Shown here piece by piece: positions 18,690-48,693 of a stretch of DNA of 64,000 nucleotides. A program made the position numbers and the translations under genes. The notes beneath the pieces were generated by a model. That model was given only the letters and a program-made list of their open reading frames with translations. It did no database searches and had not been told where the DNA came from. The stretch is taken from assembly GCA_002720855.1 (NCBI GenBank), contig PBIN01000014.1, positions 519,619 to 583,618 on the forward strand, given 5' to 3'. Source of the DNA: Rhodospirillaceae bacterium. Its GTDB lineage: Bacteria > Pseudomonadota > Alphaproteobacteria > MPNO01 > UBA2964. Position 1 is the first letter of the stretch; every line of letters begins with the position of its first letter.

Positions 18690-18740
18690 AACCGCGGGCC
18701 ACGACCCCCCAACGGGTTGCGCCTCTTCTGTAAGGGAGAG
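18690..18740 (+). ncRNA. Candidate serC leader RNA (regulatory 5' structure)
   Basis: Just upstream of serC, two possible stems follow each other. An upper one pairs AACC (18690-18693) with GGTT (18715-18718) and encloses a GGG/CCC run. A final one pairs CTCTTC (18723-18728) with GGAGAG (18735-18740) around a 6-base loop and buries the serC Shine-Dalgarno AAGGGAGAG. This matches the known serC leader of alphaproteobacterial serC-serA operons, whose last stem covers the ribosome-binding site. Identification rests on context and hand folding, not a covariance-model search. Confidence 0.5.
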
Positions 18741-18745
18741 TTATT

Positions 18746-19934: not shown

Positions 19935-21533
19935 ATGCCAAAAGTATTAATTTCTGACAGTTTGAGCTTGCGTGCGGTCGACATATTCAAGAACCGAGGG
20001 CTTGAAGTTGACGTTAAAACCGGTATGACGCCGGAGGAGCTGATTGAGTGCATTGGCAACTATGATGGCTTGGCCGTGCGTTCTGCGACCAAAGTGACCC
20101 CAGAAGTGTTAGCTGCAGCCAAGAATTTGAAGGTTGTTGGGCGAGCGGGTATCGGCGTTGACAACATCAATATAGATGAGGCCTCGGCAAACGGCGTCGT
20201 GGTTATGAATACACCGTTCGGCAATGCAATAACGACAGCAGAACATGCTATCGCGATGATGTTTGCCTTGGCACGCCAGATTCCGTCGGCGGATCAAATG
20301 ACACAGGCAGGGAAGTGGGAAAAATCCCGTTTTATGGGTACAGAGCTCACTGGCAAAACACTCGGGATCATCGGTTGCGGCAATATCGGTTCACGCGTTG
20401 CCGAGCGGGCGATCGGGCTAAAAATGCGCGTTGTTGCCTATGACCCTTTCCTGACAGTGGATCGAGCGCAGGACCTTGGCGTCGAAAAGGTCGAATTGGA
20501 AGAATTATTTCCGCGTGCCGATATCATAACGCTGCATACGCCATTAACTGATGCCACACGAGATGTACTGAACAAGACCGCATTTGCGCAAATGCGTGAT
20601 GGCGTCCTGATCGTGAATTGCGCACGCGGGGAATTGGTCGTTGAGGAAGATATTAAATCCGCACTTGAATCTGGCAAAGTTGGCGGATTCGCTGTCGATG
20701 TTTTTCCGACTGAACCCCCTGAAAATTACAGTTTGTTCGGGATGGATAATGTCGTGGCAACTCCTCATCTCGGTGCGGCGACCGCTGAAGCACAGGAAAA
20801 TGTTGCACTTCAGGTTGCCGAACAGATGTCCGATTACTTGCTCAGCGGCGCCGTCGTAAATGCCATCAATATGGCGTCGGTATCGGCAGAAGATGCGCCA
20901 AAACTGAAGCCTTATATGCATCTCGCTGAATTGCTTGGTGGTTTTGCGGGGCAAATTATAGAAACGGGTTTGCAGTCCATTACTATCGAATATGAGGGAC
21001 ATGCCGCAAGTTTGAACACCAAGCCGCTCACCGCTTGCGCGCTTACCGGTGTGATGTCTCCCGCCATGGAATCGGTGAATATGGTCAATGCTCCAGTTAT
21101 TGCGCGGGACCGTAATATCGGTGTGTCCATCGTCAATCACGAAAGGGAGTGCGAATATCAAACGCTGGTGCATCTCACTGTGAAAACTGAAAAGCGACAG
21201 CTTTCCGTTGCTGGTACTCTTATTGGTGGCGATAAGCCACGGATTGTGGAAATTGGCGGCGTCCCGATGGAAGCCTCATTGGGGCGTCAAATGGTTTATA
21301 CGGTGAACAGGGATATGCCGGGCATTATCGGTGCGTTCGGTATGGCGATGGCAAATGCAGGCGTCAATATTGCGAACTTTATCCTTGGCAGAACGAAGCC
21401 TGGCGGTGATGCGGTAGCACTTCTCGAATTGGATCACGAAGTAAGCGAAGACGTATTACAAACTATTCGTGAAGTTCCTCATGTTCTTGAAGCCACTCAA
21501 TTGAGTTTTCCCTCCATTGACGCAAGCGTTTAG
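19935..21533 (+). CDS. serA: D-3-phosphoglycerate dehydrogenase
   Basis: A 532-residue long-form PGDH, the first committed enzyme of serine synthesis. The Rossmann motif GCGNIG is at residues 147-152; NCARGELVVEED and TPHLGAATAEAQ contain the catalytic Arg and His; an intervening domain (about 315-450) and a C-terminal ACT domain (VYTVNRDMPGIIGAFG...) follow, typical of serine-sensitive long PGDHs. It is cotranscribed with serC. Its stop overlaps the convergent carbonic-anhydrase-like gene by 4 bp. Confidence 0.97.
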   Translation: MPKVLISDSLSLRAVDIFKNRGLEVDVKTGMTPEELIECIGNYDGLAVRSATKVTPEVLAAAKNLKVVGRAGIGVDNINIDEASANGVVVMNTPFGNAITTAEHAIAMMFALARQIPSADQMTQAGKWEKSRFMGTELTGKTLGIIGCGNIGSRVAERAIGLKMRVVAYDPFLTVDRAQDLGVEKVELEELFPRADIITLHTPLTDATRDVLNKTAFAQMRDGVLIVNCARGELVVEEDIKSALESGKVGGFAVDVFPTEPPENYSLFGMDNVVATPHLGAATAEAQENVALQVAEQMSDYLLSGAVVNAINMASVSAEDAPKLKPYMHLAELLGGFAGQIIETGLQSITIEYEGHAASLNTKPLTACALTGVMSPAMESVNMVNAPVIARDRNIGVSIVNHERECEYQTLVHLTVKTEKRQLSVAGTLIGGDKPRIVEIGGVPMEASLGRQMVYTVNRDMPGIIGAFGMAMANAGVNIANFILGRTKPGGDAVALLELDHEVSEDVLQTIREVPHVLEATQLSFPSIDASV

Positions 21534-34576: not shown

Positions 34577-36052
34577 CTAAGGCCTGTTTGGTTTCCCAAC
34601 AAAGCCTTCGCCATGTCCGGTTTCATTTGCTGCCCATCCGCCTGCAACGCGTCCGCTAAAGACAGAGGGTCCGAGCATCGTGCCTTCGAGCCCGGCGCTT
34701 CCGTTGATGTGACCGCCTGCCATACCGCAGGCTTCACCTGCCGCGTAGAGGCCTTCGATGGGTTCAAAATGCTTGTTGAGGACCCGGCATTTGATATCTG
34801 TCTTGATACCCCCAAAGTTTTTGCGCGCGGTTGGGACGAACTGCAACGCGTAATAGGGAGGTGTGTCGAACGGTTTCGACATGCCGAGCGGTTTGCCAAA
34901 CTCCGGTTCGTTATCAAGACCTTTTTCGCACGCGTCATTGTAACGCTCTATTTCTCCAAGAAATGTTGCGGGGTCGACTTCAATCTCTTTCGCCAGCTGC
35001 TCCAGGGTTTCCGCGCTTTTGACAAAAGGAGAGTTCGCCAGAAGTTCTTCGACATTTTCGCGGATAATTTCATCCCCGTTGCGATAATACGGATCGGCGA
35101 TCTCAAGATTGGCTTTCATGGGTGTGTCAACGATTGCCCAGGCATGCGGCGGATCTTGTGCCAGCATTGCAGGACTCGCCGAGTTTCCACCCGATAGGGA
35201 CTCATTATGGAAGCGTTTGCCCTGCTGGTTGACCCAGATATATCCCGGAATATGACGGCAAACGAGTCCGCGCTTTTGATCAGGATCCCGATAGTCCGGT
35301 GTGGAGTAAACATAGAACCAGACATTCTCCATATGGGTTAAATAGCCGCCCACATCGGTTACCATTTTATGTCCTGAACCTGTCGAGCCGTGTCCCGAAC
35401 CTTCCATGACCTTGTGGCCCTTGAGTTCCGGGCGGGCTTCCAGAACCATATCGATATTTGAATTAAAACCGCCGGTGGTCACGATGACGGTCTTACAACT
35501 GACTTCCACTTCCTCACCGGTTTCCGAATTAACCCCCAAGAAGCCAACGGCTCTCCCATTGCTGGTCTTGATTTCTTTTATTTCGGTATTGGCAACGATT
35601 TCGCCGCCTTTGTCGCGAAAAGCCTGTGTTAAATGCGTCATGAGGCCGAGGCCATTGCGCTCCGGTCGGGTCCACCGCATCACGGAGTTCCCTTCCTGCG
35701 GTTTCATATCGACCCATTTTACGCCGAAATTTTCTGCCCAGTGATAAAGGTCATGCAAACTATGTTCGATATAGTAGCGCGCCCAGACAACGTCCGTTGA
35801 CGGCCCGCCCCATTTGACCCAGTCGTTGAAGGCGAGGTCAGGGTTGTCCTCAATACCTGCTGCTTTTTGGATTGGTGACCCAACGATACAGCACCCGCCA
35901 CCGGAAATCGCCGCAGCACCACCAAGGTCGGCAGCTTTCTCGAACACGATCACGCTCGCGCCAGCATCGCAGGCTTCTATCCCCGCAGCGATACCGGCGC
36001 CCCCGGACCCGATAATTGCAATTTCAGTTTCGTAGGTCTTCTTGTCCGCCAT
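34577..36052 (-). CDS. FAD-dependent oxidoreductase, fumarate reductase/KstD-like family
   Basis: A 491-residue flavoprotein. The FAD-binding GSGGAGIAAG is at residues 15-24 and continues VIVFEKAADLGGAAAISGGG. It has the two-domain layout of fumarate reductase flavoprotein-type, 3-ketosteroid dehydrogenase and tricarballylate dehydrogenase proteins. The C-terminal signature GSAGLEGTMLGPSVFSGRVAG is conserved. No heme or Fe-S partner is coded here. It is the last gene of a three-gene unit with the split ThDP decarboxylase (15 bp gap), which suggests a common pathway on an organic acid or related substrate. Confidence 0.85.
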   Translation of the reverse strand: MADKKTYETEIAIIGSGGAGIAAGIEACDAGASVIVFEKAADLGGAAAISGGGCCIVGSPIQKAAGIEDNPDLAFNDWVKWGGPSTDVVWARYYIEHSLHDLYHWAENFGVKWVDMKPQEGNSVMRWTRPERNGLGLMTHLTQAFRDKGGEIVANTEIKEIKTSNGRAVGFLGVNSETGEEVEVSCKTVIVTTGGFNSNIDMVLEARPELKGHKVMEGSGHGSTGSGHKMVTDVGGYLTHMENVWFYVYSTPDYRDPDQKRGLVCRHIPGYIWVNQQGKRFHNESLSGGNSASPAMLAQDPPHAWAIVDTPMKANLEIADPYYRNGDEIIRENVEELLANSPFVKSAETLEQLAKEIEVDPATFLGEIERYNDACEKGLDNEPEFGKPLGMSKPFDTPPYYALQFVPTARKNFGGIKTDIKCRVLNKHFEPIEGLYAAGEACGMAGGHINGSAGLEGTMLGPSVFSGRVAGGWAANETGHGEGFVGKPNRP

Positions 36053-36067
36053 TCGTATGGTCTCCGT

Positions 36068-36637
36068 TTAGAAATTCTTCACCGCTTCCGCGAAATCTTC
36101 GCGAAGCTTCGCACTGTGCATGTGTCGGTAGTCCTGCGGATAATCTTCGCCCGGCACGCATTTCAAAGTCACAAAGGTTGGACCTTCTTCCTGAAGTATG
36201 CTGCCGATATTGTCCTCGAAACTCTCCAAATCCGAGAGCTCATGACAATTGTTATACCCTGCGGACTCCGCCATCCCTGCAAAACTGGCGCTGTTCTGTC
36301 CCGGAATAGGGTGTCCGCCATTCGCTTCGTAGGTACCGTTTTCGAGCACAAAATGGATTAAATTTTTCGGTGCCGCATTTGCCGTCGTAACGAGACATCC
36401 GAGATTCATTAGTAAGCTGCCATCGCCGTCTAGCAATATGATTCGCCGATCTGGCCAGGCCAACGCGAAACCAAGCGCATGGGACGACGTCATTCCCATG
36501 GCGCCAGAAGAGATATAGTTGCAGGGGCTGGGCCGAATGGCGATCCATTCAAAGGCGGTGGTATAGGCGGCAACGACGATTTCGTCTTGCGCTATTTTAC
36601 CAGCGAGGGATTTTAAACAGTCGTCACGTTTCATCAT
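36068..36637 (-). CDS. ThDP-dependent decarboxylase, beta (PP-domain) subunit, sulfopyruvate/phosphonopyruvate decarboxylase-like
   Basis: A 189-residue PP domain. The thiamine diphosphate/Mg motif is GDG at 71-73 followed by N100 (GDG-x26-N). Preceded by SSGAMGMTSSHALGFALA. Split enzymes of this type (ComD/ComE, sulfopyruvate decarboxylase; also phosphonopyruvate decarboxylase) decarboxylate 3-sulfo- or phosphonopyruvate to the aldehyde. The substrate here is not determined. It overlaps the alpha subunit gene by 4 bp (ATGA), so both subunits are made together. Confidence 0.85.
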   Translation of the reverse strand: MMKRDDCLKSLAGKIAQDEIVVAAYTTAFEWIAIRPSPCNYISSGAMGMTSSHALGFALAWPDRRIILLDGDGSLLMNLGCLVTTANAAPKNLIHFVLENGTYEANGGHPIPGQNSASFAGMAESAGYNNCHELSDLESFEDNIGSILQEEGPTFVTLKCVPGEDYPQDYRHMHSAKLREDFAEAVKNF

Positions 36638-37176
36638 GCGGCTAACGGGGGTCTGCCTATGAGCATCGCGACAGGGCTTGATGTCTCATAACACTTGTTG
36701 ATGGCGGGTGTGATAAGACCGATATCGTCATCGGTTTCGATCAGATGTCGGTCAATATTCATAGTATCCAGGATCGGTTCAACAATTCTGATTCCGAAAC
36801 GTTTTGATTCCGTTGGGGCAACACCGGGTTCCTTGCTCAGCAGCCCAACCATCATACAGATCGGCATCTGATACTCGCAGCCAATCGCACGTATGGCGTT
36901 CATAGAGTCGAGCAAACCGGTATATTGGATTAAAATTAAGGTGCGCTGCCCGCTATAGGACATCGCGGCACTGATGCCAACGGTTTCATCTTCCTTGCAA
37001 ACGCGGATATGGCGCAACTCTTCATCTGCTGCAATGGGTCGTAACAATCCTTCTGAAGTTGTTTTATCGGGAACGGTCAGAATGGTGTTGACGCCGCTTT
37101 TTTTGACAGCATCAATTATCAGGCTTCCTGTCAGGCAATCTGCCGGTGTGCCTTCCTCACTTGCTGAATTTGTCAT
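36634..37176 (-). CDS. ThDP-dependent decarboxylase, alpha (PYR-domain) subunit, sulfopyruvate decarboxylase-like
   Basis: A 180-residue PYR domain. RVCKEDETVGISAAMSYSG carries the Glu that activates the ThDP aminopyrimidine, and YTGLLDSMNAIRAIG and QMPICMMVGLLSKE are typical of ComD-like subunits. With the beta subunit downstream (4-bp overlap) it would form a heteromeric decarboxylase. It is the first gene of the unit, divergent from the zinc-ribbon/TauD/cupin set; the 221-bp space between may hold operators. Confidence 0.83.
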   Translation of the reverse strand: MTNSASEEGTPADCLTGSLIIDAVKKSGVNTILTVPDKTTSEGLLRPIAADEELRHIRVCKEDETVGISAAMSYSGQRTLILIQYTGLLDSMNAIRAIGCEYQMPICMMVGLLSKEPGVAPTESKRFGIRIVEPILDTMNIDRHLIETDDDIGLITPAINKCYETSSPVAMLIGRPPLAA

Positions 37177-37383
37177 TTGTCCTCAATCGATTTCGATTGT
37201 TGGTAGGTTTACGCTGTTTGTAGTGTCACGGAATTTCGAGCAAATACAACCTAGCGGCCGGGTTTTTTCCGTAAAGTCCTTATTTTTGCTATATAAATTA
37301 ACCATTTTTCGGCAAAAAAGTGCGACTTTTTGACCTAAAAAGCGAAATTCCTTAATCTTTTTGTTTCACTTTTTTTAAAAACA

Positions 37384-37401
37384 CCATACGTTACCGTATG
37401 G
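37384..37401 (+). promoter_or_regulatory. Inverted repeat over the start codon of the zinc-ribbon gene
   Basis: CCATACG (37384-37390) and CGTATGG (37395-37401) are perfect 7-base arms around a TTAC loop, so the first ATG (37398) is within the downstream arm. It could be a protein-binding operator or an RNA hairpin that hides the start codon. Another A/T-rich inverted repeat (CTTTTT-gacct-AAAAAG, 37326-37342) lies in the same divergent region. Confidence 0.4.
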
Positions 37402-37574
37402 CTATGACAAATAAATCGAAAAAGCCGGAACCTGAACGGGTCTATGTAATGAAAAAGCGTAACTGCTTGAAATGTGGAGAGCGTTTCGACAGCAGTTGGG
37501 CAGGTGAGCGCGTCTGCAAACGCTGCAAATCCAGCGGAAGCTGGCGCAGCGGGTCGGACTTTGAGGCCGCCTAG
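37398..37574 (+). CDS. Small zinc-ribbon protein
   Basis: A 58-residue protein not listed by long-ORF criteria. Two CxxC pairs (CLKC and CKRC, about residues 24-27 and 41-44) with a 13-residue spacing form a treble-clef/zinc-ribbon motif; the rest is Lys/Arg/Ser-rich. Such proteins are common in Alphaproteobacteria and may bind nucleic acid. A second Met at 37404 is possible. The first ATG lies in a perfect inverted repeat (CCATACG-TTAC-CGTATGG, 37384-37401). Confidence 0.8.
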   Translation: MAMTNKSKKPEPERVYVMKKRNCLKCGERFDSSWAGERVCKRCKSSGSWRSGSDFEAA

Positions 37575-37676
37575 AGCCTTTGCAGGCCCAGGAGGGGCCG
37601 TTCGCTCATAGACCCTACAAATCTTCAGTGCTAAAGTCCGTTTCTCAGTGGATTTTTTGGTGTGAGGACGTGTGCC

Positions 37677-38579
37677 ATGGATCAACCGGTAAAAGTTCAA
37701 TACAAACCGCTTTCTTCCGCCTGCGGTGTGGAAATTCTCGGCCTGGATTTGCGCGAGAACCTGCCGCAGCAGACGATTGATGAAATTCGCGCATTGTGGA
37801 ACCAGTACATCGTTCTGGTATTTCGCAATCAGACTATTACAGAAGACGAACAACTGCGTTTTGCGGGAAAGTTCGGTGATCTCGGTGAGCGAAAAGCACC
37901 GCCGGAAGAGTTAAAGGAACGCACGACCGGCGTATTACAGAACGACCAACGTGTGATGCTCGTCAGCAATAAAATGCTCGAGGGAAAGCCGGTCGGTTCG
38001 TTTGGCGATGGCGATATGTGGTATCACATCGATTCCGGTTACGCGAAAAACCCGTATACTTATACCTTCCTCTATGGCGTCGAGTTGCCGTCGGAAGGCG
38101 GGAATACGCTTTTTGGTAACATGTATAAGGCCTACGACTCGCTGAGCCAGGATCTAAAAGATAAACTGGCCGGTCAGAAGGCACTTCATATCCATCAATA
38201 TGAACGGCGTGCGCGTGTCGATATATCAGGCGATATCAGCAAGATTCCACACTGGTTCCATCCGGTATTTGTCACGCATCCGGAGTCCGGGCGTAAATCC
38301 CTGTTCGTGGACCGGTTGATGACCCAGCGCATTGAAGGGGTTAGCCACGACGAGAGTGAAGCGATCCTTGAGGAGCTTTATGCTGCAGGCGAAAATCCTG
38401 AAAACGTTTATGAGCATGAATGGGAATTGGGTGATTTCGTCATGTGGGACAATCGTTGCGCCATTCACGGACGCACATGGTTTGACCCTCAAGAACCCCG
38501 GTTGTTGCGTCGCTGTACGATTGAGGGCGGCCCACTATACGAAGAGTTATCGGACTACCCCCAGAATCAATCCGCCTAG
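37677..38579 (+). CDS. TauD/TfdA-family Fe(II)/2-oxoglutarate dioxygenase
   Basis: A 300-residue dioxygenase from the chosen start. The iron ligands are H117-x-D119 (WYHIDSG) and H264 (CAIHGRTWF), and R275 is the likely 2-oxoglutarate-binding Arg. Family members hydroxylate taurine, alkylsulfates, 2,4-D and other substrates. ATG 37677 is preceded by GAGGA 8 bases upstream; the upstream start at 37662 lacks this. It lies 102 bp after the zinc-ribbon gene and 80 bp before the cupin gene. Confidence 0.9.
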   Translation: MDQPVKVQYKPLSSACGVEILGLDLRENLPQQTIDEIRALWNQYIVLVFRNQTITEDEQLRFAGKFGDLGERKAPPEELKERTTGVLQNDQRVMLVSNKMLEGKPVGSFGDGDMWYHIDSGYAKNPYTYTFLYGVELPSEGGNTLFGNMYKAYDSLSQDLKDKLAGQKALHIHQYERRARVDISGDISKIPHWFHPVFVTHPESGRKSLFVDRLMTQRIEGVSHDESEAILEELYAAGENPENVYEHEWELGDFVMWDNRCAIHGRTWFDPQEPRLLRRCTIEGGPLYEELSDYPQNQSA

Positions 38580-38659
38580 ACACACGTTTCAAAGGTGGCG
38601 TTGACGTGCGGGAATTCCCGTGTTTCGGTTTCTCCAAAGATTGAGAAAGGAGAATTTCT

Positions 38660-39208
38660 ATGGCTGTTGCCCGTCACCCACGCCCCCCTGAACTTGTCGA
38701 TACGCCCATCGATGAGATCATGGAGCAGTATGTTGCCCGGTTTAGGACCCGCATTCCCGACTGGGAAGCTTTCGAAGATGCAAAAATAGAAGGGTACAAG
38801 CGGGCACAGCATCGTTTCATTGGTGCCGGCGGATCGGGCAAGCATGGCGATATGAACGCAATTCCGCCGCGCGCACACACGCTGAGCATAATGTATGTCG
38901 AGCCGGGCCAGGGAAACGCACCCCACACGCATGAAGTCGAAGAGACATTTTTCGTGCTTAAGGGGCACCTTGATGTTTTTGTTGAGGACGAGGAAGGCAA
39001 TCGTCTAACGACCAGACTCGGACAGTGGGACTGCATCACGTCGCCGCCAGGCGTAATTCATGGTTACGACAATAACAGTCTCGAGCCGGTATGGTTTCAG
39101 GTCATGCTCGGTCGTGGTGTTCCTGAGACGATGGGCTATGCCGATGACGAACTTTTTGCGCGCCGCGATGCCCATTTGAAGGAGAGCAATAACCCTCCGC
39201 AAAGTTAG
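38660..39208 (+). CDS. Cupin-domain protein
   Basis: A 182-residue protein with a single cupin barrel (about 75-160). Candidate metal ligands H89, H91, E95 and H134 are all present (GNAPHTHEVEETFFVLKGH and PPGVIHGYD), so it probably binds a metal and may be an enzyme. Its N-terminal ~70 residues are helical. It follows the TauD-type gene on the same strand. The last 4 bp overlap the stop of the convergent transporter gene. The substrate is unknown. Confidence 0.85.
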   Translation: MAVARHPRPPELVDTPIDEIMEQYVARFRTRIPDWEAFEDAKIEGYKRAQHRFIGAGGSGKHGDMNAIPPRAHTLSIMYVEPGQGNAPHTHEVEETFFVLKGHLDVFVEDEEGNRLTTRLGQWDCITSPPGVIHGYDNNSLEPVWFQVMLGRGVPETMGYADDELFARRDAHLKESNNPPQS

Positions 39209-39789
39209 GCTGGTTGTATTCCAAGCCGTTCATCACGCTGGCGTAACCACATAATCGCTGGCAGAGCGAGGACGATCATCCAGCTCTTGCCAACAATTTG
39301 CCCCGCGATGAAGTCGAGACTGCCGAACGCCAGATAGAGGAAGATGGCGCTGTCGATTACGAGACCGACAATGCCGCTGGCGAATACAGCTAAAACCAGT
39401 CTCCGACGCTGCAAAGGTGTGTAGACAGCGAAGTCTGCCAACTCGGACACAAGGAAAGCAGTGCCAGAGGCGAGGACCAAAGCGGGTGGTGCCAAAAAAG
39501 CCGATAGTGCAGCTCCTGCCAAAATCGCAGCGATTGCGAACTTGACGCCGAGTCTCCGTTGAACGAGGTCGCGTAAGACCAACGCCAAACCAATCATTAA
39601 AACGCCACTGGGTGCCATTAAACCCGGTGCGACGGGAATTAAACAGGGACCGTTATCGAGGCATACGGTTCCCGCATTTCCGATCAGCCAGTTTGCAGCA
39701 GGAATGGTCAACGCAAACGCGCACAGGTAAATGTACCCCTCCGTTCGCAAGGATTTGACCATGCTGTCGGTTTTGTTTGTGTCTTGCAT
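39205..39789 (-). CDS. VUT family transporter (YhhQ-like, queuosine precursor importer)
   Basis: A 194-residue integral membrane protein with about six hydrophobic segments and the VUT/YhhQ pattern (GLALVLRDLVQRRLG, YTPLQRRR, GLVIDSAIFLYLAFG). E. coli YhhQ imports preQ0/preQ1. It starts 1 bp after the queC stop, so queC-VUT is an operon, which supports a queuosine-precursor role. Confidence 0.85.
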   Translation of the reverse strand: MQDTNKTDSMVKSLRTEGYIYLCAFALTIPAANWLIGNAGTVCLDNGPCLIPVAPGLMAPSGVLMIGLALVLRDLVQRRLGVKFAIAAILAGAALSAFLAPPALVLASGTAFLVSELADFAVYTPLQRRRLVLAVFASGIVGLVIDSAIFLYLAFGSLDFIAGQIVGKSWMIVLALPAIMWLRQRDERLGIQPA

Positions 39790-41132: not shown

Positions 41133-41150
41133 TACCCTGATTTTAAGGGT
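41128..41150 (-). terminator. Weak candidate terminator of the D-2-hydroxyacid dehydrogenase gene
   Basis: ACCCT (41134-41138) pairs with AGGGT (41146-41150) around a 7-base loop that includes the stop codon of the minus-strand gene. On the minus strand a T-rich run follows the stem after about four bases (complement of AAAAAA, 41123-41129). The 5-bp stem is short. Confidence 0.3.
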
Positions 41151-42258
41151 TAGGCGGGCCGTATCCCGGATGATCGGGAGTTGGCTCATTTGCGGTCAAA
41201 ACGGTGGTTCCTGCAAACCGCTCTTTCCAGCGATCTATGACTTCAGGGTTAAAGACATTGTTGGGTACTTCGCCTGCAAGGGCCTGCAGTACAGCATTTG
41301 TTGCCCAAACATAGCCCGGTCCCAATCCGCTGGCCTGATTTGACGATACCATATGTGGTGACAGAATTACCTTGTCGCCGAGCTTCTTGAGTGGCGAATT
41401 CTTGTCGATAGGTTCGTCCGCAAAGGCGTCAATTGCGGCGGCGGCGATTACATCATTTTCCAGAGCATCAGCCAAAGCTGCCTCGTCAACATTGGCGCCG
41501 CGGGAGGTATTTACGAATATGGCCGATGGTTTCATCTGGGCGAACCTTTCAGCGTTCATAAGTTTCGATGTTTCCTTTGTGTTGACGCAATGCATGCTGA
41601 CGATGTCAGATTCCGCGAGTAGCGTATCGAGGTCGACTTTCTCGACGCCATTTCGAATAAACCTTTCATCATCGATATACGGATCGGCGGCAATAATTTG
41701 CATATTCCATGGCGCAAATAGTTGGGCCACCCGCGCACCAATTCTGCCAAGACCAATCAGGCCGAGGGTAAGGCCGGGGTAACCGTCAGTCGAACGGCGA
41801 CCGAGATACTGACCCATCAATCCGGGGTCGCGCCAGTCGCCACCTTTGACTGCGGCGTCCCGCTGGCTGGTTTTTTTAAGTGTTGCCAAAATAAACGCGA
41901 CTGTGCCTTCCGCAACGCCGTAGCAGTTGGATTCTGTTGGGGCGTGGCAAACCAATATTCCGAGTTCAGTTGCAGCTTCGACATCGACATCGTCGGTTCC
42001 AACAGTGCATTTGGCGACAACGCGCAGGTTGGGACTCGACTCCAAAATATTTCGGGTGATGGGACTTGATCGGATTGAGGTCCCCATGAGCGCTTCCGCA
42101 TCTTTTGCCATTTCGATCATGTCTTGTTCATTGTCGCCTTGAGGCGAATGCCAACCGGCCTGGCCCATTGAGAGGCCGCAGCCATATTTTTCCAGCTTGG
42201 TGTGACATTCGGCTTCTTCATCTACCGGCGCGAATATAAAGACCTTTGGATCGCTCAT
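41143..42258 (-). CDS. D-2-hydroxyacid dehydrogenase family protein
   Basis: A 371-residue NAD-dependent dehydrogenase. The NAD-binding motif is GLIGLGRIGARVA (near residue 165); NTSRGANVDE holds the substrate-binding Arg, DAFADEPID the Glu and LSPHMVSSN the catalytic His. It has no ACT domain, so differs from serA at 19935-21533. The N-terminal ~50 residues and the tail extend past the core. The natural 2-hydroxyacid is unknown. Confidence 0.9.
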   Translation of the reverse strand: MSDPKVFIFAPVDEEAECHTKLEKYGCGLSMGQAGWHSPQGDNEQDMIEMAKDAEALMGTSIRSSPITRNILESSPNLRVVAKCTVGTDDVDVEAATELGILVCHAPTESNCYGVAEGTVAFILATLKKTSQRDAAVKGGDWRDPGLMGQYLGRRSTDGYPGLTLGLIGLGRIGARVAQLFAPWNMQIIAADPYIDDERFIRNGVEKVDLDTLLAESDIVSMHCVNTKETSKLMNAERFAQMKPSAIFVNTSRGANVDEAALADALENDVIAAAAIDAFADEPIDKNSPLKKLGDKVILSPHMVSSNQASGLGPGYVWATNAVLQALAGEVPNNVFNPEVIDRWKERFAGTTVLTANEPTPDHPGYGPPNP

Positions 42259-43130: not shown

Positions 43131-44327
43131 CTATGTCCGTACTAATTTACCTGGCGGTGGCACCGCCCCTTTGCTGTCTGGGAAAATTTTACGTTCCAAA
43201 ATCCCATTAGGGATATCGAAATGTTGATGCATTATCGTTTTAAAGAGTGCGCGGGTATCACTGGTTGCTGCCAAATCACGTCCGCCGAAGAGTGCATCCT
43301 GTCGAAGGCTGGGCCAGTGTGTTGCTACGCGTCCGCCTGCAACAGCGCCGCCAAGCAGAATTGCTGCGCCGCCGGCACCGTGGTCGGTTCCTTTGCTGCC
43401 ATTCATACGTACCGTGCGCCCGAATTCGGTAACAACACAAATAACGGTATCGCGCCAGACAGGTTTTAGTCTGCCCGCCAGTTCATTCAGCCCATTGCCC
43501 AAAAGCCCCAGGTTCCTGGCTAACCTGCCGGCCTCCGCACCCTGATTTGCGTGAGTGTCCCACCCGCCCATTTCAATTACCGCGACTCGGGCACCCTGAT
43601 CAGCGGCAAGCAGGCGACCGGCCGCCTCTGCGAGTGTTTTGAATCGCCCAGGGTTGCGCATGTTGCCGCGCTTCATTTTCGTATCACCGAGGACGGAACC
43701 GGTCATGGCTTGAGCTCTTCTCCCTTCTTTTAAAGCGCGATTAAAAATCGGGTCTGCCTGATAGAGCCTTCCAAGCGAATTTAGCAGATGTTCTGGCGAT
43801 GGCGGTATCCGCGCTGGGGCCCAGGACGCTATCGGTGTGGATCCACGCATCACGGGCGGTGTGTCGTAGCCCACAGCCAGTCCCAGTCTACCAGCGCTCT
43901 TATCAATCACACCAAGAGCTCTATTGAGCCAGCCATCCTGAAGCATGTGGGCCTTTGCAGCTCCATTTTCGAGGACATTTTGCGCATCAAAATGTGACCG
44001 TGTTCGTTGTGGGACAGCAATCGCATGTATAATCGCCATGTCACCTGATCTGTAATATTTTTGTATCGGCGTTAAAGATTTGTGCATCGCAAAGTTCTGA
44101 TCGAGAGCGATCGTATTGTCAGAGGCCTGCAACAAACCGTCCCGAAGATCGCTATAGTTCGGATCACCCAGCGGGGGAAATGCGGCGAGGCCATCCATAC
44201 CACCGCGCAACACGACCAGGACAAATCTTTTTTTGGTGTTGGCAGCGGCAACAGCAAGGCCAGGCACAGCGGTGCTGGACAACGCAGTGGCGGAGGCTCC
44301 GATAAGGAATTCGCGGCGGGTCGTCAT
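43131..44327 (-). CDS. DUF1501 domain-containing protein (sulfatase-like fold), Tat-exported
   Basis: A 398-residue protein with a Tat signal (TRREFLIG, residues 3-10, then a hydrophobic core to about 28). The mature part has the DUF1501 pattern VLRGGMDGLAAFPPLGDP, MGGWDTHANQG and VVTEFGRTVRMNGSKGTDHGAGG; it is related to alkaline-phosphatase/sulfatase-like proteins. It is exported folded, perhaps with metal cofactors. It begins 3 bp after the DUF1800 gene ends; the two families co-occur as pairs in many bacteria. Its substrate is unknown. Confidence 0.93.
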   Translation of the reverse strand: MTTRREFLIGASATALSSTAVPGLAVAAANTKKRFVLVVLRGGMDGLAAFPPLGDPNYSDLRDGLLQASDNTIALDQNFAMHKSLTPIQKYYRSGDMAIIHAIAVPQRTRSHFDAQNVLENGAAKAHMLQDGWLNRALGVIDKSAGRLGLAVGYDTPPVMRGSTPIASWAPARIPPSPEHLLNSLGRLYQADPIFNRALKEGRRAQAMTGSVLGDTKMKRGNMRNPGRFKTLAEAAGRLLAADQGARVAVIEMGGWDTHANQGAEAGRLARNLGLLGNGLNELAGRLKPVWRDTVICVVTEFGRTVRMNGSKGTDHGAGGAAILLGGAVAGGRVATHWPSLRQDALFGGRDLAATSDTRALFKTIMHQHFDIPNGILERKIFPDSKGAVPPPGKLVRT

Positions 44328-44330
44328 TTT

Positions 44331-45656
44331 CTACCTCCTTTGAAATTCCGGACTGGAAAGGAGAAGAGATAGCGCCGCCCGGCGGCTCGGGGCTTGCTTA
44401 AGTGCCGTCAGGGTTTCGATACGGGCAATTGGCCCTAAGGCTTGTTCTGCAAGTTGTACTGGATCGTGCCGCTTGGTGTTGCGGCGCGCCAGGAGATCCA
44501 TCAGCTCAACCCGGCGCAGTAAGGATTCTGGACTTATCCAATCCTTTGCTGTGTCTGGCCACCCCGCAGGAGAAGGCGCTGAAAATGGGAGTTGGCCAAG
44601 CAATCGCAAAGCATGGATCATATGTTTGGGCTTGTCGGGTGGACCCAGCATGCGAAAAGCAGAAATCACGAGCCCGCTTGGCGACTTGATTTTTGTCAAA
44701 GGTTTGTTCCAGATGGCGGGAAGAGCGACAAGTTCACGCGCCATTGCGCCGAGATTTCCATTGGTTTCCAGATATTTTTTTTGCAGCTGTTTTACGACCG
44801 CGGGCGGTGGATTGTCGGCGACAAAATGGCGGGCAAGTTTGGTTGCAATAAATTGGGCTGTTGAGGGGTGTTGCGCAAGATTGCGGAGTGCTCGCTCAGC
44901 TTCTTGTTGTCCATCCTCAGGATACCGGCGGCCCAAAAGTGTTTTCGAATCCGGTTCATGGCGTCTGTCATTGAACCAGAATCCGCCAGCGTTACTGTGT
45001 CGTTTTGGCGCAACAGTCCAGCCCGTCAACATTTTAGCCAGTGCGATGACGTCGGTTTGGGTATATCCGCCATTTACGCCCAAAGTGTGCAGCTCTAGGA
45101 TTTCGCGCGCCAGGTTTTCGTTAAGTCCCCGGCCCCGGCGTAACCCTACTGTGGAATTCGGGCCAATAGATGAAACATTGTCGAGATAAACCAGCATCGC
45201 GGGGTGTTTCGTGACGGCCACCAACATTTCCGCGAAGTTTCCGGCAACATATGGGCGGATAGCTTCGCGCTCAAATGCGCCAGCTATACCGCGAATTCGG
45301 CCTTTGGTTTTCGAAACGGTGAAATGGTTGCTCCAGAACCGGACCAGCCGTTCGCGAAAAGGAGTATCAGTTTCGATAGCGGCACGATTGCGGCGCCGGA
45401 TTTCCTTGAAAAATAAAGGCCGAATACGGTCTTTGTTAAACATTTTCCGCATTTCGCGGGACCCACGCGCTTGCATCCATTCCTGAATGATTTCTTCGCT
45501 ACGAGGTAAATCATTGAAATAGGGTAGGGCGCCGTCCTCTGTTCCGAGTTGTCGGAGCAACCAACTTTGCGGGTCAGCAGCAATTCCGCCAAGATATCCT
45601 CGCTTGGGTCCGAGGCCAAAGCGATTTGCCGCAATAAATGCATCTACACTCGTCAT
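44331..45656 (-). CDS. DUF1800 domain-containing protein
   Basis: A 441-residue protein of the DUF1800 family. AANRFGLGPKRG at the N terminus, ENLAREILELHTLGVNGGYTQTDVIALAKMLTGW in the middle and FRMLGPPD...LGQLPFSAPSPAGWPDTAKDWISPESLLRRV are the family segments. No signal peptide is evident. It starts the DUF1800-DUF1501-DUF1491 operon. Such pairs occur in Planctomycetes and Proteobacteria; the function is not established. Confidence 0.93.
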   Translation of the reverse strand: MTSVDAFIAANRFGLGPKRGYLGGIAADPQSWLLRQLGTEDGALPYFNDLPRSEEIIQEWMQARGSREMRKMFNKDRIRPLFFKEIRRRNRAAIETDTPFRERLVRFWSNHFTVSKTKGRIRGIAGAFEREAIRPYVAGNFAEMLVAVTKHPAMLVYLDNVSSIGPNSTVGLRRGRGLNENLAREILELHTLGVNGGYTQTDVIALAKMLTGWTVAPKRHSNAGGFWFNDRRHEPDSKTLLGRRYPEDGQQEAERALRNLAQHPSTAQFIATKLARHFVADNPPPAVVKQLQKKYLETNGNLGAMARELVALPAIWNKPLTKIKSPSGLVISAFRMLGPPDKPKHMIHALRLLGQLPFSAPSPAGWPDTAKDWISPESLLRRVELMDLLARRNTKRHDPVQLAEQALGPIARIETLTALKQAPSRRAALSLLLSSPEFQRR

Positions 45657-45774: not shown

Positions 45775-46719
45775 TTATTTATCTATTTGTGTGCGAAGGT
45801 CAGCAACATAATCAGCAAATGCGTCTTCCATTGAGAACTCGGGTTCCCAATCAAGCATTTCTTTCGCGCGTGTGATATCGAGGGGTGCCGCCCTGTTTGT
45901 CGGCGGTGTTCCTGGGACAATTTCGACTCTGAGATCGGGCAACTGATCTTTAATGACTGAAACCAGGTCATCAAACGAAGTGGTAAATGGATAGGCTATA
46001 TTAAAGGCGTTCTCAGCGGGCTGGTCGACGGTTGCACAAATATCGATGGCACGACCACAATCCTTGGCATAGAGGTAAACAAAGTCCATCGTTTGCTCTT
46101 CGGGTATTTTAGCCGGTTCACCGGTTATTCCGGCCATAACCAGGTCCTGTACTTTCTGGCCGCCGCCCGATCCACCCCAGAAATGACCGACGCCAAAGAC
46201 ATTACCAAGCCTTAACATGAAAATATCGAACCCTGCTTCAAGCGCATAAGCCTCCATAATCATTTCCTGCGCTACTTTGGAGTTGCTATAGGCTGTGCCC
46301 GCTCCCATAAGGTCGTCCTCAGGAACGGGCCCCGCGCCCATTTTGCGCCAGTCATAAACACCAAATGTGCTGATATGCACGACACGCTTAATGCCGGTCA
46401 GCCTGGCGGCATCCGCGACGGCCTGTGTCCCACCGACGTTGAGATCGTACCCAAAATGAATGGGATCATTTACTTTCTTGCCGATTACAGAAGCCGTATT
46501 GAGTATTGTGTCAACACCATGAGCATTGATCGTTGAAATGAGGCCGGGGAGGCTTCGAACATCTTCATTCAAATAGGTAAAATCCGCATTTCCCATTTTG
46601 GCGCGAATAAAATCTTCACGCGGAATTGGGTCGACAAAGACGACTTTTTCGCCACGTCGTACGGCGGACTGAGCATAAGAAGTGCCGACCAATCCGGCGC
46701 CGGTTATTAGTGTCGTCAT
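45775..46719 (-). CDS. NAD-dependent epimerase/dehydratase family protein
   Basis: A 314-residue extended SDR. N-terminal TGAGLVGTSYA is the nucleotide-binding loop, and AYSNSKVAQEM holds the YxxxK catalytic pair. It has the two-domain layout of sugar-nucleotide epimerases. The substrate is not clear; UDP-sugar and steroid types are both possible. A DMT transporter gene ends 46768, 48 bp upstream on the same strand. Confidence 0.85.
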   Translation of the reverse strand: MTTLITGAGLVGTSYAQSAVRRGEKVVFVDPIPREDFIRAKMGNADFTYLNEDVRSLPGLISTINAHGVDTILNTASVIGKKVNDPIHFGYDLNVGGTQAVADAARLTGIKRVVHISTFGVYDWRKMGAGPVPEDDLMGAGTAYSNSKVAQEMIMEAYALEAGFDIFMLRLGNVFGVGHFWGGSGGGQKVQDLVMAGITGEPAKIPEEQTMDFVYLYAKDCGRAIDICATVDQPAENAFNIAYPFTTSFDDLVSVIKDQLPDLRVEIVPGTPPTNRAAPLDITRAKEMLDWEPEFSMEDAFADYVADLRTQIDK

Positions 46720-46767: not shown

Positions 46768-47709
46768 TCAGCTTTCTTTCGCTATGGGCTTTTTGGTGTT
46801 TTCCGCTCGCAGAAGATAGATACTGCTGCCAATAATGACTGCTGCCCCACCATAGCTCCACCAGCCGGGCGTTTCGGAAAACCAGATGATGCCCAGAACA
46901 AATGCATACACAATCCGCATGTAATCGAATGGCATAACAAAGCTTGTTTCGCCGAGCCCGACGCCGTGTGTAAAGAGGCCCTGTCCGACGATGCCCAGTG
47001 TGCCTGTTAGCACAAGTAAGAAAACCTCAGTCCACGTTGGCGTTTGCCAGACGATCATCGCCGGAATAAAAGCGAGAAGCGTCGTAAAGAGCGCGAAGTA
47101 AAACATTATGGTAACCGTATGTTCTGTACGGCTGAGCAGTTTAACCGTTAGAACAACGCCGGTTCCAAAAAGTGTTCCGCACAAAGCCACTAGGTACCAG
47201 GGGTCAAATCCACCCCCAAAAGGTTTGGTTATCAGAAGGATTCCACTAAAACCAATAATTGTGACAATCCCACGCTTAAATCCGATTACCTCATTCAGAA
47301 ACAGGGCGGCGACAACGATCATTATCATCGGGCGAGAAAACTGAATCGTTACGGTGTCGGCCAGAGAGATATGGATGAGGGCATAGAAGAAACATAAGTT
47401 TCCCATAAACCCCACCAACCCGCGCGTACCGTGCAGCTGAATTTTTGATGTTTTGACAATCGGGAGCCCCATTCGCCACACCAGCGGCGCAATGACAATG
47501 AGACCTGCGAGAAACCTCGCAAACAGTACCTGGAATGCAGGCAATGATTGACCAAGGTGCTTTACGAGGGAGGCCATAACGATCAGGAGAAATGCACCGA
47601 CTACGACGAAACAGGCACCGCGAATGTTGGGTGGGATTCGTTCCCATTTGTCCTGTATAGATGAGAGCAAAGGAATTCGGTTTTGTCTGCGCTTCTCGGA
47701 CGGTGACAT
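46768..47709 (-). CDS. DMT/EamA-family transporter
   Basis: A ~313-residue protein with about ten transmembrane helices in two EamA repeats (GAFLLIVMASLVKHLG... and YFALFTTLLAFIPA...). The start at 47709 was taken because the upstream in-frame TTG at 47757 adds 16 non-conserved residues. It could export amino acids or drug-like metabolites; the substrate is unknown. A similar gene with the same fold is at 57053-57967. Confidence 0.85.
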   Translation of the reverse strand: MSPSEKRRQNRIPLLSSIQDKWERIPPNIRGACFVVVGAFLLIVMASLVKHLGQSLPAFQVLFARFLAGLIVIAPLVWRMGLPIVKTSKIQLHGTRGLVGFMGNLCFFYALIHISLADTVTIQFSRPMIMIVVAALFLNEVIGFKRGIVTIIGFSGILLITKPFGGGFDPWYLVALCGTLFGTGVVLTVKLLSRTEHTVTIMFYFALFTTLLAFIPAMIVWQTPTWTEVFLLVLTGTLGIVGQGLFTHGVGLGETSFVMPFDYMRIVYAFVLGIIWFSETPGWWSYGGAAVIIGSSIYLLRAENTKKPIAKES

Positions 47710-47895
47710 CGCCCGCAATGTGTGCGCCAGAAATCTGCTTGTCAAACCCACTGCCAAATGTTGCGCCGAACTTCTTCCGCGCCTACCGTGACAGACTGCG
47801 GCGGCAATAAGGCTAAAGAATTAGAAATCGTTGCCACTAACGATCGCTGGCAAAGACGGCGTGATTTAACAACAGGTTAGAGATTGGATTGAAAC

Positions 47896-48693
47896 ATGAC
47901 ACCAAATGCAAAAATGGAAGGTAAAGTGGCTCTGGTTACGGGTGGCGGTGGCGCAATTGGCGGTGCGTCGGCGCGATTGTTGGCGAGCGAAGGAGCGAAA
48001 ATACTTGTTGCCGACGAACGCGGTGAAATGGCTAAAAAAGTAGCGCAGGAAATACGGGAAGCGGGAGGTAACGCGGAGTCCATTGCTGTCGATGTTGCAG
48101 ACGCATCGCAGTGCAAATCGGCCACTGACGCCGCTGTAACGGCTTTTGGTGAGCTGCATGTCCTGGTAAACGTCGCCGCTGCTGTTACACCTGATGCTCC
48201 GGTCGACGAATTGCCACTGGAGGAGTGGGATCGTGCGTTCGCTGTAAATCTTACGGGTCCATTTTTGATGTCGAAATTTGCGGTTCCCGAAATCCGTAAA
48301 GCGGGCGGTGGCGCCATTGTGAATATGGCATCTCAGCTGGGAACAATCGGTGTACCCAACCGATCGGCTTATTGTACGACGAAGGCTGCACTCATTCATT
48401 TTACGACGATTTTGGCGGCGGAAGTGGCAGACGATAACATTCGTGTAAACTCGGTTTCACCCGGTGTGATCGAAACACCTAGAACAAGGCGTCGGTTTGA
48501 CACTGCAGAGGAATTTCATGAGTCGCGCGGCAAACTTCATATGTTGGGCCGCGTTGGTCAACCGGAAGAAATTGCCAATGCCGTTCTATTTTTGTCTGCG
48601 GAAGATTCATCGTTTGTGACCGCGACGAATCTTTTGGTAGATGGCGGTTATATCTACTTGAAGCGACAGCCCGGAGAAAACGGCAAGGTCTAG
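47896..48693 (+). CDS. SDR-family oxidoreductase
   Basis: A 265-residue classical short-chain dehydrogenase. The TGGGGAIGGASARLL cofactor motif, the Ser of the MASQLGTIG segment and the YCTTKAAL (YxxxK) pair are visible. The aldo/keto reductase remnant starts the base after its stop. It is divergent from the transporter, 186 bp apart. The substrate is unknown. Confidence 0.9.
   Translation: MTPNAKMEGKVALVTGGGGAIGGASARLLASEGAKILVADERGEMAKKVAQEIREAGGNAESIAVDVADASQCKSATDAAVTAFGELHVLVNVAAAVTPDAPVDELPLEEWDRAFAVNLTGPFLMSKFAVPEIRKAGGGAIVNMASQLGTIGVPNRSAYCTTKAALIHFTTILAAEVADDNIRVNSVSPGVIETPRTRRRFDTAEEFHESRGKLHMLGRVGQPEEIANAVLFLSAEDSSFVTATNLLVDGGYIYLKRQPGENGKV

Follow-up and report, generated by a model that had tools for sequence, protein, structure and literature searches.

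We analysed a 64,000-nucleotide window of the genome of a Rhodospirillaceae bacterium (contig PBIN01000014.1, positions 519,619 to 583,618), which contains a divergent gene cluster at 34577–39208 combining a putative split thiamine diphosphate (ThDP) decarboxylase with a flavoprotein, a dioxygenase and a cupin. The minus strand encodes an alpha subunit, the pyrimidine-binding half of the decarboxylase (36634–37176; Glu61 in a KEDE motif), a beta subunit, its ThDP/pyrophosphate-binding half (36068–36637; PF02775, TPP_enzyme_C, 54.4 bits), and a 491-residue FAD_binding_2 flavoprotein with the fumarate reductase fold (34577–36052; PF00890, 213.9 bits). Because the alpha and beta genes overlap by 4 bp and the gap between the beta and flavoprotein genes is 15 bp, these three genes look like one operon. 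Across an intergenic region of 221 bp (37177–37397) between the alpha and zinc-ribbon genes, the plus strand encodes a 58-residue four-cysteine zinc-ribbon protein without any family above cut-off (37398–37574), a TauD/TfdA-family Fe(II)/2-oxoglutarate dioxygenase (37677–38579; PF02668, 209.5 bits) and a single-domain Cupin_2 protein, cupA, with a 3-His/1-Glu motif (38660–39208; PF07883, 48.6 bits). For the TauD gene the start at 37677, where the alignments of relatives begin, was preferred to a GTG at 37662. The genes named in the original prediction, which had been made from the letters of the window, were all recovered at these positions with agreeing family scores, as was the length of the shared region. 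As that prediction also held, no named product was found for the locus, and no report of this cluster was found in the open-access literature searched. The closest named record is the metagenome-assembled genome Rhodospirillaceae bacterium MAG SP3103, and the host genus consists of uncultured bacteria that are probably marine.

The alpha and beta proteins are predicted to form a two-subunit split ThDP decarboxylase, as originally proposed. The pyrimidine-binding and pyrophosphate-binding halves are adjacent, the catalytic Glu and the GDG...N motif are present, and alpha Glu61 is unvaried across 11 aligned sequences; the TPP_enzyme_N score of alpha (26.4 bits) falls just short of the Pfam cut-off of 26.8. 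The best family match of alpha was TIGR03845 (83.6 bits, cut-off 147.95), and the best matches of beta, all under cut-off, were NF004813 (125.1 bits), TIGR03297 (115.7 bits; alpha 42.4 bits; cut-off 312.5) and, in third place, TIGR03846 (110.1 bits, cut-off 221.5). ComDE sulfopyruvate decarboxylase (TIGR03845/TIGR03846) thus has its split architecture and family in common with alpha/beta, but the window proteins score well under the ComDE cut-offs and lie in a neighbourhood of catabolic type. The closest solved structure is that of RhiEF (PDB 9iz3/9iz4), a phosphonopyruvate decarboxylase that is likewise a two-subunit ThDP enzyme. RhiE (9iz3_A) matched alpha with an E-value of 1.8e-6 and 31 bits, the catalytic Glu being aligned, and RhiF (9iz3_B) matched beta with an E-value of 8.4e-18 and 68 bits, the GDG...N motif being common to both. 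This similarity is low, however, and RhiEF is biosynthetic (PMC12141560), whereas the window locus has no recognised phosphonate gene. A further precedent is LumK/LumL, a split ThDP enzyme of a catabolic cluster that decarboxylates a quinoxaline carboxylate (PMC12746152); we liken it to alpha/beta from that description, not from sequence. The molybdenum (Mo) hydroxylase and extradiol dioxygenase of its cluster have counterparts near relatives of the window genes, whereas no Rieske dioxygenase or P450 was found among the 19 window proteins scanned, and only two genomes (G008 and G005) have an amidase next to the locus.

The window genome (G000) has seven alpha-like places, none above the TIGR03845 cut-off. 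Split ThDP pairs number five, namely that of the window, one on contig C12, two in tandem on C5 and one on C2, and there are two single-chain relatives, a 379-residue phosphonopyruvate decarboxylase (L211; 438.6 bits against the TIGR03297 cut-off of 312.5) and a 388-residue protein with the beta half first. The latter (G000:C7:115500-118500; L212:1280-2446, minus strand) is beta-like at residues 1–187 and alpha-like at 225–377, and shares 39% identity with the window beta in its beta half. The tandem pairs (G000:C5:188500-192500, L214) are mutually 58% and 52% identical, and three other genomes (G001, G003 and G007) likewise have a pair of alpha-like matches separated by about 1.1 kb. Alpha exceeded the TIGR03845 cut-off in 0 of 12 genomes of the family and in 2 of 14 control genomes. 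Xsc was above cut-off in none of eight genus genomes and in one of 12 overall (G009, of another genus), other sulfoacetaldehyde enzymes not having been searched for, and the phosphonatase PhnX was above cut-off in none of 12 genomes. Phosphoenolpyruvate (PEP) mutase was above cut-off in nine of the 12 family genomes, including that of the window (384.4 against 319.55 bits), where it lies on a separate contig (C15). Phosphonate synthesis is therefore likely in the window genome, judged from these matches. The PEP mutase nevertheless carries little weight for the locus, because it is offset by the genome's own phosphonopyruvate decarboxylase. In G006 a split pair does lie beside a PEP mutase, but it is a paralogue, 23% (alpha) and 32% (beta) identical to that of the window. 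That locus (L217, G006:C119:2500-9000), in which a PEP mutase frame is followed immediately by the pair and a 375-residue gene, looks like a phosphonate-synthesis operon.

The flavoprotein had been called fumarate-reductase-like, a description that, on comparison, holds at the level of the fold only. Flavocytochrome c3 fumarate reductase (Fcc3) and urocanate reductase share the FAD_binding_2 fold with it (E-values of 2.4e-45 and 2.8e-37), but no heme domain was matched in the window protein, and its TIGR01813 score of 231.9 bits is under the cut-off of 285.45. The residues that we take to be the substrate-binding and catalytic ones of Fcc3 are His365, Thr377, Glu378, Arg381, Arg402, His504 and Arg544, the last two being His505 and Arg545 in the aligned 1d4d chain. 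In the phmmer alignment with 1d4d, the window protein has T, L, V, H, G, K and G at these positions, so that none of the seven is kept. Orthologues 61–89% identical were detected in 18 of 60 other genomes (E ≤ 1e-60). A Ser of the window protein that is Arg in genus relatives was considered as the mark of a broken active site and rejected; the site is occupied by R, K, E, A or S in the 17 sequences, out of 18, that have a residue there, and is thus not catalytic. The flavoprotein of one relative (L024) is nearer to that of the window (distance 0.110) than to that of L021 (0.161), whereas the eight other genes compared place L024 nearer to L021, a pattern for which recombination is a possible cause. 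An AlphaFold2 model of the flavoprotein built from two sequences had a predicted local distance difference test score (pLDDT) of 33.8, too low for the model to be of use.

The TauD-family protein keeps, in an alignment with Escherichia coli TauD, the HxD...H facial triad and the equivalents of Thr126 and the 2-oxoglutarate-binding Arg266, all of them features of the TauD and RdpA 2-oxoglutarate dioxygenases, and RdpA is its closest solved relative (E-value of 1e-35). The taurine contacts of E. coli TauD are, as we take them, H70, Y73, N95, V102, S158, F159, F206 and R270. The window protein has at these positions R, P, G, S, a gap, a gap, M and R; seven of the eight contacts are thus not kept and only R270 remains. 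Its score against NF007104 was 140.7 bits, with a cut-off of 313. The zinc-ribbon protein is 93–98% identical in seven other genus genomes. It was the most constrained protein compared, with 98% identity and a nonsynonymous difference (pN) of 0.007 against one relative (L024). Since in G010 the zinc-ribbon gene and alpha lie on different contigs (C136 and C93), it is probably a bystander.

The shared region had been reported to hold two perfect inverted repeats. Both exist, but only CAATCGA-TT-TCGATTG (37184–37199) lies wholly within the 221 bp, the other, CCATACG-TTAC-CGTATGG (37384–37401), spanning the start codon of the zinc-ribbon gene. Counted as perfect 7-bp arms with a loop of at most 12 and at least two G/C per arm, the number of repeats in the region was equalled or exceeded in 87 of 500 dinucleotide shuffles. 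The first repeat has a copy in none of six aligned relatives and the second in one of the six (L024). As operators, both were therefore rejected, being unconserved and not above chance. A third palindrome, AAAAGT-GCG-ACTTTT (37316–37330), seen in an alignment of seven loci, is identical 5' of the zinc-ribbon gene in four of nine genomes, in a single copy per genome. Its count in the window is not above chance either, at least one occurrence with one mismatch allowed being found in 21 of 100 shuffles, and it is because of its conserved position, not its count, that we regard it as a candidate operator of the zinc-ribbon gene.

The cupin motifs, which we take to be HXH(X)3,4E(X)6G and PXG(X)2H(X)3N, place cupA in the cupin superfamily together with its PF07883 match. 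The metal ligands, described as intact in the original prediction, are indeed so: His89, His91, Glu95 and His134 are present in 24 of 24 aligned copies (23 and a 60% paralogue). With a threshold of 69% identity, cupA was found in 24 of 61 genomes, its own counted; its AlphaFold2 model from one sequence, with a pLDDT of 36.5, was likewise of no use. Beyond cupA, the window encodes a membrane protein like Vut_1 and queuosine precursor transporters (39205–39789, minus strand; PF02592), a D-2-hydroxyacid dehydrogenase (41143–42258, minus strand; PF02826/PF00389) that is 64–78% identical in L178–L181, and, as the outer part of an older module, an NAD-dependent epimerase/dehydratase-like protein (45775–46719, minus strand), an EamA transporter (46768–47757, minus strand) and a short-chain dehydrogenase/reductase (SDR; 47896–48693, plus strand). 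In two loci of other genomes (L178 and L179, of G012 and G011), a TauD homologue, cupA, the D-2-hydroxyacid dehydrogenase, an extradiol-type vicinal oxygen chelate (VOC) protein, the epimerase-like protein, EamA and SDR occur together, and L180 and L181 hold part of this module. The window holds the set up to 48693, minus the VOC gene, and the order of the epimerase-like, EamA and SDR genes is equal in the window, L178 and L179. The D-2-hydroxyacid dehydrogenase lies near cupA in g1, g2, g3 and g4; the Vut_1-like gene adjoins cupA in L178 and L180 and is not listed in L179 or L181. The boundaries first drawn for the cluster were hence too narrow, as the cupA module reaches 48.7 kb and sister species have a second cupin between beta and the flavoprotein. 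Gene order indicates that the cluster is a junction of two modules, that of cupA being older than the genus.

This second cupin, of 155 residues, occupies the position between beta and the flavoprotein in six relatives, and in G004, where a contig ends, 115 of its residues adjoin the flavoprotein. It was not found in the window genome (98% complete), which has only partial matches of 44–56% elsewhere. Relatives of this cupin, 48–51% identical, lie in three loci of another family (L124, L125 and L126) near a paralogous alpha/beta pair and M3 peptidase and ABC1-kinase genes (Pfam run on L124 alone), a hint that cupins of this type work with split ThDP enzymes. The extradiol-type VOC gene, resembling HpaD and catechol 2,3-dioxygenase under cut-off, is present in seven of eight genus relatives and was not found in the window genome. 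L021–L024 and L040 have a fused ABC permease and the VOC gene at the site that a DUF1501/DUF1800 pair (43131–45656) takes up in the window; three of these five relatives also have a solute-binding protein, whole or cut at the locus end, and L023 retains a 101-residue DUF1800-like remnant there. A gene for the FAD subunit of a Mo-hydroxylase was near cupA in nine of 18 cupA loci, all of the f2 and f3 families, with ABC transporter genes in between in five of the nine, all from one genus; protein families were scored on representatives and carried over to the other loci by clustering. The subunits are closest to CO-dehydrogenase/glyceraldehyde-dehydrogenase models, under cut-off. Upstream in the window, a serC leader RNA (RF00517, 46.4 bits; 18692–18744, plus strand) lies 5' of a region with a second D-2-hydroxyacid dehydrogenase-like protein (20067–20771). 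The housekeeping SerA is therefore probably near 20 kb, which would make the gene at 41143–42258 a different enzyme.

Conservation was followed in a genus sample of nine genomes (G000–G008) and in genomes beyond it. The relatives are mostly incomplete assemblies, orthology was judged from similarity and position without trees, and in loci outside the genus genes were called by simple open-reading-frame rules and Pfam was run on selected proteins. Six cluster and module genes compared in four relatives are under purifying selection (pN 0.05–0.18 against a synonymous difference, pS, of 0.62–0.91). Full alpha is present in seven of the nine genus genomes; G004 has only a 35-residue fragment, and G005 (1.4 Mb, 71% complete) only a distant paralogue match. 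In all seven genus loci with both genes, alpha and TauD are divergent and 501–519 bp apart. Alpha orthologues of 49–63% identity were found in 13 more of 61 genomes, and class-wide alpha passes an E-value of 1e-25 in 11 of 385 genomes, including four in which the E-value is no better than 8.4e-30 to 2.4e-27. A TauD homologue lies 706 bp from alpha/beta and divergent in G012, which has another beside cupA, and 1503 bp away on the same strand in G010, with an amidohydrolase between. Outside the genus, neither the flavoprotein nor cupA was detected next to alpha/beta, and it is in this genus alone that both are joined to the alpha/beta–TauD set. The conservation of the two halves together, on which the original prediction had staked its proposal, thus extends to alpha/beta with TauD and, outside the genus, not to the flavoprotein and cupA. 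In 16 alpha/beta loci outside the genus, an alpha/beta hydrolase gene is directly upstream in eight and an amidohydrolase_2 gene within 1.5 kb in six; an aminotransferase is directly upstream in two and an AstE-type deacylase in two, and three have none of these enzymes. Alpha/beta evolved faster on the window branch, but this was not taken as specific to the pathway, since the branch is just as long for the DEAD helicase and QueC.

We give an even chance to the reading that this is a catabolic locus of one alphaproteobacterial genus which decarboxylates a 2-oxo acid or a similar heteroaromatic acid, its reactions and substrate being proposed from gene content and comparison. An imported compound would be oxidised by the TauD dioxygenase or the cupin; a 2-oxo acid, or a heteroaromatic carboxylate equivalent to it, would arise through the D-2-hydroxyacid dehydrogenase or a different oxidation, and alpha/beta would remove its CO2 by way of a ThDP adduct. 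The flavoprotein, a soluble one, would dehydrogenate a C–C or C–N bond of an intermediate rather than reduce fumarate, and the substrate would be something other than a classical sulfonate or phosphonate or a compound of the fumarate type. The window species may run a reduced version, without the second cupin and extradiol-type dioxygenase of its sister species. That alpha/beta acts on such an acid is suggested by the neighbours of its orthologues, which are mostly catabolic enzymes. Of the originally proposed breakdown of an organosulfur, organophosphorus or dicarboxylate compound, the catabolic character is supported, while the specific substrates are weakened by scores under cut-off and by the residues found. 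Several observations weigh against the reading. Genus-wide synteny of more than 10 kb could hold neighbours together without a common function. Of the eight genomes outside the genus with both genes, seven have the flavoprotein and alpha on different contigs and the eighth, G016, has them about 19 kb apart, though several of these contigs are short, which makes the missing linkage weak evidence. A single genus (g5) supplies five of the six amidohydrolase and four of the eight hydrolase cases, so that these do not count as independent, and the alpha/beta neighbourhoods are so varied that no single substrate can be derived from context. The proposed link between dehydrogenase and decarboxylase is one of proximity only, and in the window genome, which lacks the extradiol-type dioxygenase and second cupin, the pathway may differ or be incomplete.

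Some of these observations would fit two separate operons, alpha/beta/flavoprotein and TauD/cupin, that are neighbours by descent only and do different jobs. In genomes beyond the genus the flavoprotein and cupA genes are found at other sites, G010 has its zinc-ribbon gene away from alpha, and the genus synteny also takes in the unrelated DEAD helicase and QueC. We nevertheless consider this somewhat unlikely, as in G008 (L025), where the DEAD-helicase flank and QueC are missing, alpha/beta/second cupin/flavoprotein and TauD/cupA are still together, and two other genera likewise have a TauD homologue linked to alpha/beta. Another possibility is the catabolism of an aromatic or N-heteroaromatic compound, with alpha/beta acting like LumK/LumL and the cupin, extradiol-type dioxygenase and Mo-hydroxylase of relatives oxidising the ring. 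The extradiol-type VOC, amidohydrolase_2 and alpha/beta hydrolase genes and the Mo-hydroxylase beside cupA among relatives' neighbours, an FAA hydrolase and UbiD in L034, and the LumK/LumL precedent (PMC12746152) point this way. However, the window genome yielded no extradiol-type gene and its scanned proteins no Rieske dioxygenase or P450, the Mo-hydroxylase subunits are nearest to models of other enzymes, and the likeness to LumK/LumL is by description; we judge it unlikely as it stands.

The known functions of split decarboxylases fare less well. Alpha/beta as a sulfopyruvate decarboxylase in sulfolactate, cysteate or 2,3-dihydroxypropane-1-sulfonate (DHPS) breakdown, with TauD acting on a sulfonate, would accord with TIGR03845 as the top match of alpha and TIGR03846 as the third of beta, and with the aminotransferase adjoining two alpha loci in other families. 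Yet both subunits are under these cut-offs, which alpha passed in control genomes and in none of the family, and in TauD H70, Y73, N95, V102 and F206 are replaced and S158 and F159 unaligned, with R270 kept. Breakdown of sulfonates by the standard route is also unsupported, because Xsc is over cut-off in only that one genome of 12 and in none of the genus, within a search that did not cover other sulfoacetaldehyde enzymes. We regard this function as improbable. A phosphonopyruvate decarboxylase in phosphonate metabolism is more improbable still: RhiE and RhiF are the nearest solved structures, PEP mutase is common in the family and present in the window genome, and an ABC importer of relatives is weakly like 2-aminoethylphosphonate transporters, but this importer scores far under cut-offs, as do beta and especially alpha against TIGR03297. 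The window genome, moreover, has a separate single-chain enzyme for the reaction and its PEP mutase on another contig, the pair by the PEP mutase of G006 is only a distant paralogue, and PhnX was over cut-off in none of the 12 genomes.

On the reading that we prefer, a catabolic locus for a 2-oxo or similar heteroaromatic acid, the cluster is a small, concrete and testable set of enzymes for an organic compound. If genes of this kind are annotated as 'sulfopyruvate decarboxylase', 'taurine dioxygenase' or 'fumarate reductase', surveys of the sulfur and phosphorus cycles could be misled. In PMC12746152, two-subunit ThDP decarboxylases are called rare, and only coenzyme M and rhizocticin synthesis are named beside its own lumichrome enzyme; against this rarity, the window genome alone has five split ThDP pairs, none over the sulfopyruvate cut-offs. 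It is possible, although we hold it with less than even confidence, that the group expanded split ThDP decarboxylases into a catabolic set, in which the locus would represent a new specificity, for an acid that is oxidised by TauD/cupin and may be heteroaromatic, as part of a pathway unnamed in the databases searched.

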